A stretch of DNA of 48,913 nucleotides from assembly GCA_024244705.1 (NCBI GenBank), contig JAAEOK010000070.1, forward strand, positions 1-48,913, in the 5' to 3' direction. The notes beneath the pieces are model-generated. The model was not told the DNA's origin and ran no database searches. It saw nothing but the letters and a program-made list of their open reading frames with translations. The DNA is from Alphaproteobacteria bacterium. GTDB taxonomy: Bacteria > Pseudomonadota > Alphaproteobacteria > JAAEOK01. Positions 5,457-34,883 of this stretch are shown in pieces (positions within the stretch are counted from its first letter, which is position 1; every line of letters begins with the position of its first letter). Position numbers and translations under genes: made by a program.

Positions 5457-5792
5457 ATGGTCGACAACTCAGTATTTCAGCGGATTCAGCAAGATATCGA
5501 GGACACCGACGTGGTCGTCTTCATGAAAGGGACGCCGGTGTTTCCGCAATGCGGATTTTCGGCTGCGGTTGTGCAAATCCTGTCTCATATGGGCGTCAAG
5601 TTCAAAGGCATCGATGTGCTTACGGATCCGTCGCTGCGCCAGGGCGTCAAGGATTTCTCGAACTGGCCGACGATCCCGCAGCTTTATGTCAAAGGCGAGT
5701 TCCTCGGCGGTTGCGACATTATTCGCGAGATGTTTGAAACCGGTGAACTTCAAAAAGAACTTGAGAATCGAGGCGTTACCGCGCAATCGTGA
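5457..5792 (+). CDS. grxD: monothiol glutaredoxin, CGFS type (Grx4)
   Basis: A 111-residue monothiol glutaredoxin with the diagnostic CGFS active site (Cys32 in PQCGFSA), the WPTIPQLYV cis-Pro loop and the GGCDI glutathione-binding motif. Proteins of this class carry and deliver [2Fe-2S] clusters and form heterodimers with BolA, whose gene is immediately upstream. It is the last gene of the purC-grxD transcript: a strong hairpin plus T-run begins 24 bases after the stop. Confidence 0.95.
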   Translation: MVDNSVFQRIQQDIEDTDVVVFMKGTPVFPQCGFSAAVVQILSHMGVKFKGIDVLTDPSLRQGVKDFSNWPTIPQLYVKGEFLGGCDIIREMFETGELQKELENRGVTAQS

Positions 5793-5816
5793 TCTCGAAT
5801 TCGCCGTAGCTTGCGC

Positions 5817-5842
5817 GGGGGCTGCCCGGGCGGCCCCTTTTT
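5817..5842 (+). terminator. rho-independent terminator after grxD
   Basis: A GC-rich hairpin with left arm GGGGCTGCC and right arm GGCGGCCCC, allowing one T-G pair, is followed directly by TTTTT. It closes the purine/bolA/grxD operon. Its T-run ends about 13 bases before the ATG of the next gene, leaving almost no room for a promoter between them. Confidence 0.8.
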
Positions 5843-5854
5843 CGATTGGTGGCA

Positions 5855-6523
5855 ATGGGATTTACAAAGGGCAAGCGACCGGAGCATGGCGAGTTCGGCC
5901 GCATTTCCTACGCGCAGGAGGCCGAAGACCTTCTCCTGTTCAACGTCTACAAGCGTCAGCGTGAGGGCTTTTACGTCGACGTCGGCGCCCACCACCCGAC
6001 ACGATTTTCAAATACCCAAATCTTCTATGACTATGGCTGGTACGGGATCAACATCGATGCTCACCCGGACAGCCTGGCCCTGTTTCAACGCGATCGGCCG
6101 CGTGACATCAACCTCCAACTCGCCATCTCCGACGTCAGCGAGCCTCTGACCTTCTATATGTTCGACGAAACCTCGGTCAGTTCCTTCGACGAGGAGCTCT
6201 CGAAGGGACCGCGGCGGGCGCAGTACTCCATCCTCGGCACCACGACGATCACGCCGCGTCGCCTCGACGACATTCTGTCCGAGTTCCTGCCCGACGGGCA
6301 GAGCATCGATTTCCTCAATGTCGATGTCGAAGGCCACGATCTCAACGTCTTGCGCTCAAACGATTGGGTCCGGTTCCGACCGACCTTCGTCCTTGTCGAG
6401 TCGTTGGAACGCCGCGCCGCTGCGGTCAATGACGATCCCCATTGCCAGCTCATGACCAAACACGGATACCACCTCTACTGTCAGACCCCACGCACCCTGT
6501 TCTTCCGCGACTCCGCGGCTTGA
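5855..6523 (+). CDS. FkbM family SAM-dependent methyltransferase
   Basis: FkbM-type enzymes O-methylate sugars or polyketides, and in Gram-negatives often surface polysaccharides. The 222-residue product has the family SAM site FYVDVGAHHP near residue 32, the GINIDAHP strand after it, and the later NVDVEGHDLNVL motif where the conserved Asp-Glu sits. A TTG at 5846 is an alternative start, but the ATG at 5855 gives the usual short N-terminus. The ribosome site is poor and a terminator stands immediately upstream, so expression may depend on read-through. The next gene is a membrane phosphoethanolamine-transferase-like enzyme, suggesting envelope modification. Confidence 0.85.
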   Translation: MGFTKGKRPEHGEFGRISYAQEAEDLLLFNVYKRQREGFYVDVGAHHPTRFSNTQIFYDYGWYGINIDAHPDSLALFQRDRPRDINLQLAISDVSEPLTFYMFDETSVSSFDEELSKGPRRAQYSILGTTTITPRRLDDILSEFLPDGQSIDFLNVDVEGHDLNVLRSNDWVRFRPTFVLVESLERRAAAVNDDPHCQLMTKHGYHLYCQTPRTLFFRDSAA

Positions 6524-29556: not shown

Positions 29557-29799
29557 CTACTCGAGACCGAGGATGGCCTTCGCTTTGGCCAGCGTGACCA
29601 TGGCCTCGTCGTTCTGCCCGGCGACGCAGAGAGATTCGCCCTCACTTCGCAAACTGCGAACTTCGGACATCTGTTGATCGGTAATCTGCGGGCCGGCGGC
29701 CAACGCTTGGTCGATTCGGCCAATATCGTCGACGCAATCCGCGAACGCCGGTAGGGCCAGCGCGGTCGACAGGATCCCGGCTAGAAGCAGTACTTTCAT
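29557..29799 (-). CDS. small secreted helical protein, paralog 1
   Basis: An 80-residue protein with a signal peptide (MKVLLLAGILSTALALPAFA), then a short mature part predicted to form a helical hairpin. The ATG at 29799 has AAGGAG about 9 bases upstream; a longer frame exists but would hide the signal peptide. The mature part is 27/57 identical, without gaps, to the product at 34635-34883 (my hand count). The shared core is IDQAL, TDxQ, EVxxLRxxGExL and TLAxAKxILGxE. It has two Cys that its paralog lacks. Function unknown; periplasmic location inferred. Confidence 0.75.
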   Translation of the reverse strand: MKVLLLAGILSTALALPAFADCVDDIGRIDQALAAGPQITDQQMSEVRSLRSEGESLCVAGQNDEAMVTLAKAKAILGLE

Positions 29800-29872
29800 G
29801 CTTGGATACTCCTTGAAGTTGCATGGTTGGGACGCCTGCAGTCTAGCCGCGAAGCGATGTCGCGGAGGTGAC

Positions 29873-29899
29873 ATTTGCCAAGCATAAAAGGGGGCAAAT
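29873..29899. repeat. 7-bp inverted repeat upstream of small secreted protein 1
   Basis: ATTTGCC (29873-29879) and GGCAAAT (29893-29899) are perfect inverted copies with a 13-base A-rich spacer, in the 243-base gap between this gene and tetR. A second perfect 6+6 inverted repeat (TCACGA-T-TCGTGA) lies at 29931-29943. No TGAAC-N3-GTTCA operator is present here. Either repeat could be a protein-binding site for paralog 1. Confidence 0.3.
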
Positions 29900-30042: not shown

Positions 30043-30657
30043 CTAGCGGATGCCGGTGGCGGTCGCCTTCAGGCCGTTGAGAAATGTCGACACGAAGGTC
30101 CGTGTCAGATCGGTCACGGTTTGGTCGGTGACCACTCCAAGCTTGCCACCATTGGCTAGCGAACTGATGCCGTGTATCCCGCACCACAGGATCCGTGCGG
30201 CGCGCAATTTCCGCCCCTCCTGCCGCGGTCCGAACAATGGCTCCAACGGCGCTTCGACCAGCGCCAGCAGACGCTTGATCTTTTCGTCATACCACGGCGG
30301 CAGGGCGGTCCCGGGCTTTAACCGGTGTTCGAAGAGCGCGTTCCAGCGATTGGCTTGGCGGCCGGTAAAGTCAAGATAGGTCACCGCCAAGGCTTCCAGC
30401 GACGATGCCGGTGTACGCTTCGACGATATACCCGCGAGCGCGGCATAGAGTTCGTCGAGGGTACGGCCATTCATCTCAACGATCAGATCGTCCTGGCTCT
30501 TGAACAGATTGTAGACGGTGCCGACAGAATACCCGATCCGCTTGGATATATCCCGTATGCTCAGTCGCCGAAGCCCCCCCTCCTCGACGATCGATGCCGC
30601 CGCGGCCAGGATCATGTCGCGTATCTCGGCTCGTGTGTGGTCGGAACGACGGCCCAT
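30043..30657 (-). CDS. TetR family transcriptional regulator
   Basis: A 204-residue repressor-type protein. The N-terminal helix-turn-helix is LSIRDISKRIGYSVGTVYNLFKSQDDL, typical TetR, followed by a helical ligand/dimer domain with FTGRQANRWNALFEHRL. The ATG at 30657 has GAGGT 8 bases ahead; an upstream ATG at 30687 falls inside an operator copy and is rejected. It diverges from the VIT/VWA-rhombosortase operon, and three palindromic boxes fill the 163-base gap, one directly against its own ribosome site, implying autorepression plus control of the operon (inference). The ligand is unknown. Confidence 0.88.
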   Translation of the reverse strand: MGRRSDHTRAEIRDMILAAAASIVEEGGLRRLSIRDISKRIGYSVGTVYNLFKSQDDLIVEMNGRTLDELYAALAGISSKRTPASSLEALAVTYLDFTGRQANRWNALFEHRLKPGTALPPWYDEKIKRLLALVEAPLEPLFGPRQEGRKLRAARILWCGIHGISSLANGGKLGVVTDQTVTDLTRTFVSTFLNGLKATATGIR

Positions 30658-30670
30658 CGATTTTGACCTC

Positions 30671-30690
30671 AATTGAACACCGTTCATTTA
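30671..30690. promoter_or_regulatory. operator box 1 (TGAAC-N3-GTTCA palindrome)
   Basis: Core TGAACACCGTTCA with flanks AAT and TTTA. It is the copy nearest to tetR, 13 bases upstream of its start codon, positioned to block tetR transcription or initiation. Nearly identical to boxes 2 and 3. Confidence 0.8.
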
Positions 30691-30723: not shown

Positions 30724-30743
30724 AATTGAACATCGTTCATTTA
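30724..30743. promoter_or_regulatory. operator box 2 (TGAAC-N3-GTTCA palindrome)
   Basis: Core TGAACATCGTTCA with the same AAT and TTTA flanks as box 1. It starts 53 bp from box 1, about five helical turns, in the centre of the divergent promoter region. Confidence 0.8.
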
Positions 30744-30774: not shown

Positions 30775-30794
30775 TATTGAACAATGTTCATTTA
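30775..30794. promoter_or_regulatory. operator box 3 (TGAAC-N3-GTTCA palindrome)
   Basis: Core TGAACAATGTTCA with flanks TAT and TTTA. It starts 51 bp after box 2 and lies 26 bases before the VIT/VWA start codon, where a bound repressor would obstruct the operon promoter. Confidence 0.8.
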
Positions 30795-30820: not shown

Positions 30821-32902
30821 ATGATGCTACGTTCGTATCGATTCCTGTGTGGATATGCAGCCGCATTGATTTTTGCCCTGGGCGTGTCGCTCGCCGGCGG
30901 CCCCGCTACCGCCGCGGGCTTGCTGGCACCAGCCGATGGTAGCCGGGCCAACATCGAGATCAAGACGCACAATGTCACGGTGATCATCGAAAACAGTTTT
31001 GCCATCACCACCATCGACCAGGTGTTCCACAACCCGCATCCTCAAGCACTTGAGACCGTTTATTCGTTTCCGGTCCCCGAAGACGCGGCGGTCGCGGAAT
31101 TCACCTATTGGATCGACGGCCAGCCGGTCATCGGCGAAGTACTGCCAAAGGAAAAGGCGCGACAGGTTTACGAAACCGAGCAACAGGCGCAGCGCGAGGC
31201 CGGTCTAGTCGAGCAGAAGGATTACCGGACGTTCGACATCGCCGTCTCCCAGGTTCCGGCCGGTCAGGACGTCCGCACCCGCCTCGTCTATATCCAGGCC
31301 ATGCCGGTGGATACCGGCGTCGGTCGCTACGTCTACCCCCTCGAGGAGGGTGGCGTCGACGAGGACCGAAAAGCGTTCTGGCTGCTCAACGACCAGGTCG
31401 CGACGGAGTTTACCTTCGACCTCCGGCTCCGCTCGGGCTACCCGGTGTCAGACATGCGGCTGCCGGACCACCCGAATGCCCTGGTTTCACGCCATTCCGA
31501 GCAGGAATGGTCGGTGCGCATAGCCCCCAATCAATCGGCCGAAGACGACGGTCCGATTCAGCCGGCCGGGATAAGGTATCCCGGCACAGCCGCACGGCTG
31601 GATACCGACATCGTCACCTATTGGCGATTGGAAAGCGGCCTGCCGGCGGGCATCAATCTGGTTGCCAACAAAGCACCCGGCGATAAACGCGGAACATTCA
31701 TGCTGGTCGTCACGCCAGGTGATGACTTGCCACCGATCAGCCGCGGCCGCGACTGGGTATTCGTCCTCGACAAATCGGGCTCGATGCAGACCAAGTTCCA
31801 CACCCTGGCCGAAGGCGTCGCAGAAGCCGTCAGCAAGATGCCGCCGGATGACCGATTTCGAATATTCCTCTTCGACCGGACGGCGTCGGAAATGACCTCC
31901 GGCTTCGTTGCCGCGAGCTCAACCGAAGCGCGAACCGCGTTGGATCTATTGCGAGCGGTGCAGCCGGATAACGGCACCAACCTCTATGGCGGCCTCGACC
32001 TCGGCCTACGTGCCGTTGATGCCGACCGGACAAGCGGTATCGTGTTGGTGACCGATGGCGTCGCCAATGTCGGCGAAGTGCGGCAGCGGGCTTTCGTCGA
32101 CCGCGTCAGGCAGCAGGATACCCGCCTGTTCACGGTGATCATGGGGAACAGCGCCAACCGGCCGCTGCTCGAGGCGATGACCGGAGCATCTGGCGGCTCG
32201 GCGGTCAGCGTTTCGAACAGCGATGACGTCGTCGGCGTGGTCATGGAGGCGCTGAGCCGTCTCGGTCATGAAGCGATGACCGATGTCGAGCTGTCGATCG
32301 AGGGTGTTCGCACCGCCGATGTCACCCCGTCTGCTCCGGGTAATCTGTACCGCGGCCAACAGTTGTCGCTGTTCGGCCACTATTGGAATGGTGGTCCGGC
32401 GGAAGTCATATTGAAAGGCCGCATCGGCGGTGAGGACCGGGTCTACCGCGCACGGTTCGCCTTTCCCGGCGAGGCGACCCTCAATCCCGAAATCGAGCGA
32501 CTTTGGGCCTTCTCGCAGGTCGACCGACTGCTGACCGAGAACGACCATTTCGGCGAAACCGGCGACCGCGCGCAGGCGATCACTGACCTTGCCATCGAAT
32601 ACGGTCTGCTGACGCCCTATACGTCAATCATCGCGCTCCGCCCTGAGATGTATGCCCAATACGGCATCGAACGCAAACAGGGCGTCCGCCGCAGCATCGA
32701 GGAACAGGCGCAGCTGCGCCGCCTGTCGGAGAAAATCGCCAACAACCGGGCCGACGAGAACAGTCCGATGTTCCAGACCGCCCGCGCCGGTCACGGCACT
32801 GGCACGGGATCGCTCGGACTGGTCGGATTTCTGGTCGCCGCCGTGGCTGCCATCGCAGCGCTTGGCGTCGGCCGGCGAGCGGCCGGAAAGTCCACGCCGT
32901 GA
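30821..32902 (+). CDS. VIT/VWA domain secreted protein with GlyGly-CTERM-like anchor (marine proteobacterial sortase-target type)
   Basis: A 693-residue envelope protein. Layout: signal peptide (residues 1-32); VIT domain (about 35-165, IDQVFHNPHPQALETVYSFP); linker; VWA domain (about 310-490) with intact MIDAS DKSGS (317-321) and VTDGVANVGE; C-terminal domain; then GTGTGSLGLVGFL, a hydrophobic helix and a final GRRAAGK basic tail (657-693). VIT+VWA proteins of this kind are known as sortase targets, but no LPxTG is present; the tail fits GlyGly-CTERM. The ATG at 30821 follows a perfect AGGAGG. Its stop overlaps the start of a rhombosortase-like gene (GTGA), the expected processing enzyme. 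Ligand and function of the displayed VWA domain are unknown. Confidence 0.85.
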   Translation: MMLRSYRFLCGYAAALIFALGVSLAGGPATAAGLLAPADGSRANIEIKTHNVTVIIENSFAITTIDQVFHNPHPQALETVYSFPVPEDAAVAEFTYWIDGQPVIGEVLPKEKARQVYETEQQAQREAGLVEQKDYRTFDIAVSQVPAGQDVRTRLVYIQAMPVDTGVGRYVYPLEEGGVDEDRKAFWLLNDQVATEFTFDLRLRSGYPVSDMRLPDHPNALVSRHSEQEWSVRIAPNQSAEDDGPIQPAGIRYPGTAARLDTDIVTYWRLESGLPAGINLVANKAPGDKRGTFMLVVTPGDDLPPISRGRDWVFVLDKSGSMQTKFHTLAEGVAEAVSKMPPDDRFRIFLFDRTASEMTSGFVAASSTEARTALDLLRAVQPDNGTNLYGGLDLGLRAVDADRTSGIVLVTDGVANVGEVRQRAFVDRVRQQDTRLFTVIMGNSANRPLLEAMTGASGGSAVSVSNSDDVVGVVMEALSRLGHEAMTDVELSIEGVRTADVTPSAPGNLYRGQQLSLFGHYWNGGPAEVILKGRIGGEDRVYRARFAFPGEATLNPEIERLWAFSQVDRLLTENDHFGETGDRAQAITDLAIEYGLLTPYTSIIALRPEMYAQYGIERKQGVRRSIEEQAQLRRLSEKIANNRADENSPMFQTARAGHGTGTGSLGLVGFLVAAVAAIAALGVGRRAAGKSTP
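32789..32899 (+). other. GlyGly-CTERM-like sorting signal coding segment
   Basis: This encodes residues 657-693 of the VIT/VWA protein: a Gly-rich stretch (GHGTGTGS), an 18-20 residue hydrophobic helix and a short Arg/Lys tail. This tripartite order is that of GlyGly-CTERM signals cleaved by rhombosortases. The Gly stretch is alternating Gly-Thr rather than pure Gly, so the match is good but not perfect. Confidence 0.65.
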
Positions 32903-33516
32903 ATGACCGCGTGATTATGCAGAGCCATGGCGGACTATCGCCGCCATGGTTCTCTCTTTTCGCCACCGCCGGTTGCGTCGGCCTCTATTTGGCCTTTGGC
33001 GCGGCGAATGCGGATCTGCTCTATGATCGCGCGGCGATCGAATCTTTTGAGATTTGGCGACTTCTGGCCGGCCACTTGGTTCACACCGATATCGAGCATT
33101 TGGTGTGGAACGCCGGTGCCCTCCTCATCCTCGCCATGACGGCGGAAATGGGGTTTCACCGGCGCTGGCCGGATTTGATCTCTGCCCTAGGCATAGGGGC
33201 GATTAGCATTACCGTCGCATTGCTGGTGCTGAGGCCCGAATTGCGACTCTATTGCGGGCTATCAGGCGTGCTCAACACATTGCTGGTCCTCGTCCTCTAT
33301 GACGGTTGGAAGGCCACCAGGCACTGGATCTTTCCCGCCATTGCCATCGGCGACGTGGTCAAGATCACCACCGAAGCGGCGCTCGGCGAAGCAGTCTTTA
33401 CCAGCGCCGCATGGCCCTCGGTCCCCGAGGCTCACGCGGCCGGTCTGCTGGCCGGCATCGCGATCGCGTTCTATCGCGATGCGCGCGGAAAATACGATGC
33501 CCCGCTGGCGGCATAG
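32899..33516 (+). CDS. rrtA: rhombosortase-type rhomboid intramembrane serine protease
   Basis: A 205-residue, roughly six-TM rhomboid-family protease. Present are the WRLLAGHLVHTDIEHLVWN region with the rhomboid HxxxN motif (His67, Asn71), the nucleophile motif YCGLSGVLN (Ser122, preceded by Cys119 as in rhombosortases) and the catalytic His179 in EAHAAGLLAG. The compact size and CGLSG fit RrtA enzymes that cleave GlyGly-CTERM proteins for transfer to the cell surface. The GTG at 32899 overlaps the substrate gene's stop by four bases, a dedicated enzyme-substrate pair. Alternative in-frame starts at 32911 and 32917 are possible. Confidence 0.85.
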   Translation: MNDRVIMQSHGGLSPPWFSLFATAGCVGLYLAFGAANADLLYDRAAIESFEIWRLLAGHLVHTDIEHLVWNAGALLILAMTAEMGFHRRWPDLISALGIGAISITVALLVLRPELRLYCGLSGVLNTLLVLVLYDGWKATRHWIFPAIAIGDVVKITTEAALGEAVFTSAAWPSVPEAHAAGLLAGIAIAFYRDARGKYDAPLAA

Positions 33517-33526
33517 AGGTCTACCC

Positions 33527-34675
33527 GTGCCGGTCCGGCTCGGATTGACCATGGCGTCATTCCTGATGCTGGCAGCCGCGGCCGGCATCGTTGCCGTCGC
33601 GGCCGCACCTGAGGAACTTGTCCGCATGTGGGCCAAGCCCGGCCACGCAATCGATCGCTCGATCAGGCTTGCGCCGCCGAATTTTGCCGAGATCGATTCG
33701 TGGTGGTCGAGGCCGGGCCTCAACGTCGCGGCATCGAAGAACGCCGACCTCTTCTTCGTTCACGGCACCAGCTATTTCGGTAATCGGCGCTGGAACGATG
33801 GGATCGAGGCCGAGTCCGGGGACTGGCGCCTGACCACAATCGCCCTGCCGGCGATGACGGCACCGTTCCGCGACTGCTGTCGTATTTTTGCACCACGCTA
33901 CCGGCAAGCCAATTTGGCTGCCTTCCTTTCCACCGGAACCGATAGCCGCGCCGCGCTCAACATGGCGTATGAGGACGTACTCGCGGCTTTCAAGTGGTAT
34001 CTCGATCACGCCAATGACGGGCGGCCGATCGTCCTCGCCGGCCACAGCCAAGGCTCGCTGCATTTGCAAAGGCTGGTCGAGGATGTCTCCTCGGATGCGC
34101 GGTTTCGCGACCGTCTCGTGGTTGCCTACCTGGTCGGTTACCCGGCCCGCCTGCCCGTACCCGGAAATGTCCCGGTCTGTGGCACGGCGAATGAAATCGG
34201 ATGCTTTGTCGCGTGGAATACGCTTGGGATCGGCGGTGCGGCGGAGCGCTGGCGGCATCGGGTCGTCGTTTGGACCGGCACCGCCTATGCCCCGGCATCT
34301 GGGCGAAAGAGGGTCTGCGTCAATCCTTTGACGTGGTCTCGCGATGGTGCGGTTGCGTCGCCATCCGACCATCGCGGCGGACGACTGGTGCCCCTATCGA
34401 ACGCGGTGCATCCCAGTCTCGTCTCCGCCCGCTGCCACGACGGACTACTTTACGTTTCGCGTCCTTCCCATCCCGCCTACGCCGTCCTTCGGCTACCGGG
34501 ACGGGACTACCATGTCATGGAATACAATCTGTTCCACGAAGACATCAGACTGAATGTGGCGGAACGGCTCGCAGCAATGCGCGCACGGCCTCGGAGCCGC
34601 ACGGACAGCAACGCCGAATCCGTGGCCGGCCTCCTTATTCGATCCCGAGGATCTCCTTGGCCTGGGCCAAAGTAG
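33527..34675 (+). CDS. DUF3089 family alpha/beta hydrolase, membrane-anchored or exported
   Basis: A 382-residue protein with an N-terminal hydrophobic segment (LGLTMASFLMLAAAAGIVAV) followed by a DUF3089-type hydrolase. Features: ADLFFVHGTSYF, a Cys pair CCRIFAPRYRQANL, and the nucleophile elbow VLAGHSQGSLHL (Ser174). The GTG at 33527 has AGAGGT 7 bases ahead; an ATG at 33497 lies inside rrtA with no good site. It is 10 bases after rrtA, so belongs to the same TetR-controlled unit. It may hydrolyse or transfer an ester or lipid in the envelope (inference). The 3' end overlaps the convergent small secreted gene by 41 bases. Confidence 0.8.
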   Translation: MPVRLGLTMASFLMLAAAAGIVAVAAAPEELVRMWAKPGHAIDRSIRLAPPNFAEIDSWWSRPGLNVAASKNADLFFVHGTSYFGNRRWNDGIEAESGDWRLTTIALPAMTAPFRDCCRIFAPRYRQANLAAFLSTGTDSRAALNMAYEDVLAAFKWYLDHANDGRPIVLAGHSQGSLHLQRLVEDVSSDARFRDRLVVAYLVGYPARLPVPGNVPVCGTANEIGCFVAWNTLGIGGAAERWRHRVVVWTGTAYAPASGRKRVCVNPLTWSRDGAVASPSDHRGGRLVPLSNAVHPSLVSARCHDGLLYVSRPSHPAYAVLRLPGRDYHVMEYNLFHEDIRLNVAERLAAMRARPRSRTDSNAESVAGLLIRSRGSPWPGPK

Positions 34676-34883
34676 CCACCGATTGAGTGTGATCACCACT
34701 ATTGTGAAGCGCCTCGCCATCGTTGCGCAGGGTGACGACTTCCGCCCGCTGGGCATCGGTCAATGTCGTATTGGTAGCCAATGCTTGGTCGATTTTTGCG
34801 ACATCCGATGGGCATTGGAAAGCCATCGCCGGCGCGGCCAGGAACGACAACGCCGCGGCCGCTATCAGAATCTGCTTGCGCAT
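34635..34883 (-). CDS. small secreted helical protein, paralog 2
   Basis: An 82-residue protein with a signal peptide (MRKQILIAAAALSFLAAPAMA) and a mature part homologous to the 29557-29799 product (27/57 identical in my ungapped count, both ending ILG[L/I]E). GAGG lies about 6 bases before the ATG. Its 3' end overlaps the DUF3089 gene on the other strand and its 5' end overlaps the Rid gene by 19 bases. Function unknown. Together with paralog 1 it brackets the TetR/VIT/rhombosortase/DUF3089 module, both copies pointing the same way. Confidence 0.75.
   Translation of the reverse strand: MRKQILIAAAALSFLAAPAMAFQCPSDVAKIDQALATNTTLTDAQRAEVVTLRNDGEALHNSGDHTQSVATLAQAKEILGIE

Follow-up and report, generated by a model that had tools for sequence, protein, structure and literature searches.

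We describe an alphaproteobacterial gene set consisting of a repressor gene with three operator-like palindromes, an envelope protein combining VIT and VWA domains, and a membrane protease predicted to trim the tail of that protein, which together form a self-contained unit. The gene anatomy of this set, the assignment of its protease to the rhombosortase family, the conservation of its linkage and operators and the existence of a separate enzyme lineage are established in this work, and we consider it probable that the whole operates as a repressor-controlled rhombosortase system with a single client, the product of which would be lipid-tethered toward the periplasm. The pairing of enzyme and substrate has been known since 2011, while the conserved repressor, the protease lineage and the coexistence with a sortase-dependent cousin appear to be undescribed.

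Background

Rhombosortase has been studied mainly in Vibrio cholerae, where many clients and the type II secretion system (T2SS) mask the enzyme's own role. The V. cholerae rhombosortase RssP cuts VesB, exposing the second glycine of its motif, and the new C-terminus is joined to glycerophosphoethanolamine before export through the T2SS (PMC6219818). A 2026 study reports that GlyGly-CTERM and RssP lead to membrane association only, with a second signal needed for crossing the outer membrane, and that GlpG can release VesB where RssP is absent (PMC13393428). Haft and Varghese (2011; PMC3237569) documented VIT/VWA heads with GlyGly-CTERM (their Figure 3C), PEP-CTERM or LPXTG tails and observed that the enzyme adjoins its client in single-target genomes. 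A switchable cassette with one client, in hosts where no T2SS secretin is detected, would make cleavage, lipid transfer and outer-membrane transit separately testable.

Results and discussion

Gene anatomy

The coordinates of the locus (Table 1) refer to the window, that is, the whole 48,913-nucleotide stretch of DNA that was analyzed. The envelope protein (693 residues, ATG start) contains a VIT domain at residues 47-157 (PF08487, 107.6 bits, cut-off 26.5) and a VWA domain at residues 313-469 (VWA_3, 51.2 bits, cut-off 27) with an intact metal-site motif, DKSGSM. The top Foldseek match of its structural model is human ITIH heavy chain 1 (6fpz, E 1.9e-40, about 600 columns). From this likeness to ITI heavy chains and the metal-binding VWA site, its role is probably that of binding or adhesion in the envelope. 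Its tail is tripartite, with a Gly-rich motif, a helix in the AlphaFold model and basic residues. A preliminary description had read from the letters a signal-peptide VIT and VWA protein ending in a Gly-rich stretch, a hydrophobic helix and a basic end, followed across a four-base GTGA overlap by a 205-residue rhomboid with CGLSG and a late His; open reading frames, domain models, translation and AlphaFold model agree with it on all of these points, the coordinates included.

Table 1. Features of the locus, in window coordinates
Feature	Position	Strand	Evidence
TetR-family repressor gene	30043..30657	-	PF00440, PF13305
Operator-like palindrome 1, TGAACACCGTTCA	30674..30686	.	exact pattern match
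Operator-like palindrome 2, TGAACATCGTTCA	30727..30739	.	pattern match
Operator-like palindrome 3, TGAACAATGTTCA	30778..30790	.	pattern match
Ribosome-binding site (AGGAGGG) preceding the VIT/VWA start codon	30807..30813	+	sequence reading
VIT/VWA protein, ITI-heavy-chain-like, predicted rhombosortase substrate	30821..32902	+	PF08487, VWA, Foldseek
Predicted Sec signal peptide, roughly residues 1-32, with an AxA-type end	30821..30916	+	translation read by eye; model helix at residues 2-25
C-terminal sorting tail RAGHGTGTGSLG, helix 667-688, basic end GRRAAGK	32783..32899	+	predicted
Rhombosortase (GTG start), predicted catalytic Ser122 and His179	32899..33516	+	TIGR03902
DUF3089 alpha/beta-hydrolase-like gene	33500..34675	+	PF11288, 197 bits

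The rhomboid scores 109.4 bits with the rhombosortase model TIGR03902 (cut-off 84) and 22 bits with the GlpG model TIGR04239, far under its cut-off of 250; a GlpG-type enzyme is thereby rejected, and the rhombosortase assignment of the preliminary description is upheld. AlphaFold models the rhomboid (mean pLDDT 90.9) with the fold of GlpG, which Foldseek matches at E 3.6e-5, and the predicted catalytic Ser122 (33262-33264, within CGLSG) and His179 (33433-33435) are invariant across 20 homologues. Rhombosortase is rare in Alphaproteobacteria (2 of 385 genomes), the class that the host shares with Aestuariispira insulae, and this gene is the only one in its genome, being the sole match to TIGR03902 at E 0.001. 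No tail elsewhere in the genome passes the GlyGly-CTERM model TIGR03501; the lone match, of 13 bits, is internal to the frame of a CDP-alcohol phosphatidyltransferase-like membrane protein, and was discarded as a second client. In this genome the locus thus looks like a single-target rhombosortase dyad, in keeping with the one-substrate dyad originally proposed for it.

Linkage and enzyme lineage

A search for the VIT/VWA protein across 84,980 species genomes yielded 41 loci, at 28 of which, spanning alpha-, gamma- and former deltaproteobacterial lineages, a rhombosortase gene lies next to the VIT/VWA gene. Three further loci are at a contig edge and ten have intact downstream sequence; eight of these ten genomes carry a rhombosortase elsewhere, and none was seen in the remaining two, both draft genomes. 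The pairing seen at the window locus is therefore recovered among its homologues, and the linkage of the two genes is not due to chance.

VIT-linked rhombosortases fall on their own side of a branch supported at 100/99 and present in all 200 bootstrap trees, apart from 39 others taken from the phylum and from genomes with a non-adjacent pair; where the VIT/VWA gene is non-adjacent, the rhombosortase groups with the general ones. The tree needs a single label change if the enzyme of one Hyphomicrobiales locus (L063), which has a VIT fragment just upstream at a contig edge, is counted as VIT-linked, as was done here, and two if it is counted as unlinked. Judged by their sequences, the VIT-linked rhombosortases are a separate lineage, tied to one client.

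The C-terminal tail

The tail motif, GHGTGTGSLG, contains no adjacent Gly-Gly, and TIGR03501 (cut-off 15.5) matches neither the whole VIT/VWA protein nor its tail, so that the GlyGly-CTERM assignment implied by the preliminary description did not hold. This failure is weak counter-evidence, because the model also misses most of the clear homologue tails: only 10 of 33 homologues give a match with an E value of 10 or less, and the one that passes, from Mangrovimicrobium (L047), does so narrowly (15.8 versus 15.5). All homologue tails with an intact 3' end have a Gly/Ser motif, then a hydrophobic stretch and then a basic end, a clear case being that of A. insulae (SGGGTSGGGSS), and the signal type expected from the preliminary description is in this respect conserved. 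With a profile built from the homologue tails, leaving out the window sequence, the last 60 residues of the window protein score 42.9 bits, the bulk of which comes from a conserved linker, whereas segment-preserving shuffles reach 17.0 at most; the last 37 residues score only 11.4 bits. The homologue tails hence appear to place this tail better than the GlyGly-CTERM model does. Since the tail fails TIGR03501 and is without Gly-Gly, the status of the protein as a substrate is argued from linkage and homology.

The same two properties of the tail, together with the release of VesB by GlpG when RssP is missing, would also fit a rhomboid protease that serves simply for release or quality control, cutting a simple transmembrane anchor and shedding the protein without lipid transfer. 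We regard this as unlikely, given that the enzyme clears the cut-off of the rhombosortase model but not that of the GlpG model, that the Gly/Ser motif is retained among homologues and that the enzyme lineage is tied to one client. According to the reading that we favor, in which a dedicated rhombosortase processes its single client, the VIT/VWA protein would be exported by Sec and its C-terminal helix would park the precursor in the inner membrane, where the enzyme may cleave near the Gly-rich motif by means of Ser122 and His179. The new C-terminus could then be passed to an ethanolamine lipid, by analogy with V. cholerae RssP, the one precedent for lipid transfer by a rhombosortase.

The TetR repressor and its probable operators

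The repressor gene is divergent and upstream of the VIT/VWA gene, and its product matches PF00440 (41.3 bits, cut-off 24) and PF13305 (42.9 bits, cut-off 26.8). Its true start is probably the methionine of MGRRSDH (30657) and not the first ATG (30687), because the A. insulae homologue begins with MARRSDH. The pattern TGAACNNNGTTCA has three exact matches in the window, against 0.01 expected, and the three TGAAC-N3-GTTCA palindromes sit between the TetR and VIT/VWA genes. A divergently oriented homologue of the TetR gene is present at 23 of the 41 related loci. All 24 TetR-adjacent loci (window included) have from one to four exact operators, which are found at none of the 14 loci that are without TetR and have enough upstream sequence (Fisher p 1e-10 for the contrast); three loci (L022, L038 and L051) are truncated by the ends of their contigs. 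The exception is that of Pelagibius sp. Alg239-R121 (L033), where operators are present with no TetR gene nearby: three exact copies (5754-5886) lie upstream of the VIT/VWA gene, and the regulator may act from elsewhere.

Within the genome of the window, closely spaced operator pairs occur only at this locus, and a reversed control pattern was not found paired in any of 29 genomes. One Hyphomicrobiales genome (that of L046) has a second paired TGAAC-N3-GTTCA locus (L138, C70:3876-3919) on a contig other than that of its TetR cluster, which could mark another regulated gene.

For BioQ, a member of the TetR family, TGAAC-N3-GTTCA has likewise been predicted as the binding site (PMC3398298). The identity of the palindrome with that site, along with the observed linkage, makes the TetR protein the likely binder of these operators. 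BioQ-type regulators of actinobacteria, with their identical predicted site, are tied to biotin genes, whereas the TetR protein described here is tied to the VIT/VWA-rhombosortase operon. By binding the three operators, it would shut off both its own gene and the operon until an inducer is present.

Coexistence with a sortase-dependent paralogue

The host genome also holds, on another contig, a canonical marine sortase (TIGR03784) adjoining its own VIT/VWA target (TIGR03788, 781 bits). The tail of this target consists of LPQGAT, a helix and basic residues, and the protein is 25% identical to the rhombosortase-type head. The VIT/VWA protein of the window scores 211 bits with TIGR03788, below the cut-off of 551.65, and no LPxTG-like motif was seen in the translation of its tail. 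The preliminary description had weighed a sortase elsewhere in combination with an LPxTG-like signal in this protein against its own reading; the former was found and the latter was not.

A tree built from 37 proteins of the rhombosortase type and 22 of the sortase type, sampled by similarity to each type so that rare intermediates could be missed, separates the two types completely (100/100), and the very long branch joining them measures about 7 changes per column. An over-cut-off marine sortase is encoded in 20 of 40 genomes with a rhombosortase-type VIT/VWA protein, compared with a phylum base rate of 33 in 398 (8%; Fisher p 3e-10, relatedness ignored).

The preliminary description had interpreted the locus as a sortase system in which the sorting enzyme and its recognition tail were both exchanged for those of rhombosortase and the VIT/VWA head was kept. 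Such a swap would agree with the membership of the head in the same broad family as TIGR03788 targets, as indicated by its 211 bits, and with the single head family bearing three tail types of Haft and Varghese, but the genome still retains its sortase pair, the two types are distant and separate clades, and both coexist in half of the genomes surveyed. We therefore reject an enzyme exchange at this locus and hold the swap to be very improbable. A much older swap, at the base of the VIT/VWA families, is possible. The retention of the sortase pair and the division into two clades instead indicate coexisting paralogues, and on the sequences compared the two VIT/VWA types are old paralogous families maintained side by side. 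The presence in one cell of sortase- and rhombosortase-anchored paralogues suggests that the jobs of the two anchors differ and are not interchangeable.

Export route and final location

Matches to the T2SS secretin GspD over the cut-off of 351 bits were found neither in the host genome (a 96.7% complete draft, with best matches of 134 and 116 bits) nor in that of A. insulae (99% complete), and the secretins of both are of the Tad-pilus or stand-alone type. GspD exceeds the cut-off in 10 of 15 tested genomes with a VIT/VWA protein, those missing it being the host, A. insulae and three others. A periplasm-facing end point is therefore most likely, and we anticipate with moderate confidence, GspD being the one T2SS component on which this is based, that the product would be a lipid-tethered, periplasm-facing protein.

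Alternatively, the processed protein may be displayed on the surface, crossing the outer membrane as VesB does, by a route that either escaped detection or is not a T2SS. The rhombosortase clients known so far lie on the surface (PMC6219818), and the ten genomes with GspD point the same way; we nevertheless find surface display somewhat doubtful in view of the secretin content of the host and A. insulae genomes and of the finding that GlyGly-CTERM and RssP by themselves do not bring about outer-membrane transit (PMC13393428).

A stand-alone secretin-like protein (L080, 4286-6019 on contig C50 of G000) matches only the C-terminal part of GspD, has a long extra C-terminal region and lies outside T2SS or pilus clusters.

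Comparison with known systems

The locus resembles the dyads reported by Haft and Varghese in Marinobacter, Ralstonia and Desulfuromonas (PMC3237569) in that a TIGR03902 enzyme stands beside a single client with a signal peptide and a tripartite tail, VIT/VWA heads included. It differs from them in a tail that fails TIGR03501, an alphaproteobacterial host, a conserved TetR gene with an operator array and a VIT-specific rhombosortase lineage. With RssP and VesB of V. cholerae it shares the enzyme family, the tail architecture and, by prediction, the chemistry; RssP, however, has six clients and feeds the T2SS, whereas the enzyme described here shares an operon with its one client, in a genome where no GspD match reached the cut-off. 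The marine sortase system (TIGR03784/TIGR03788) has the same head type, the same organization as a cassette of one enzyme and one client, and a place in the same genome, but employs a sortase and an LPxTG-like tail on a target from a separate clade. A literature search, with subscription journals mostly outside its scope, found no account of TetR-operator control of VIT or rhombosortase genes, of a VIT-specific rhombosortase lineage, of coexistence with a sortase paralogue or of T2SS independence.

As a tentative proposal going beyond these comparisons, the locus might represent a T2SS-independent branch of rhombosortases, switched by TetR, that lipid-tethers a single ITI-heavy-chain-like periplasmic protein beside its sortase-anchored paralogue. 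If so, each cell would possess two differently anchored versions of one kind of envelope protein.

Flanking genes

The 5' end of the DUF3089 gene (33500) overlaps the 3' end of the rhombosortase gene (33516), and the two are possibly co-transcribed. As a third conserved member of the set the DUF3089 gene was rejected, a homologue being present at 0 of the 41 related loci. Two genes for small secreted proteins of about 80 residues (29557-29874 and 34635-34883, both on the minus strand), which are 45% identical (E 2e-21), bracket the block formed by the TetR, VIT/VWA, rhombosortase and DUF3089 genes in like orientation, as if the two copies of a duplicated gene enclosed the block; the protein encoded at 34635-34883 bears a weak resemblance to the BRANT family.
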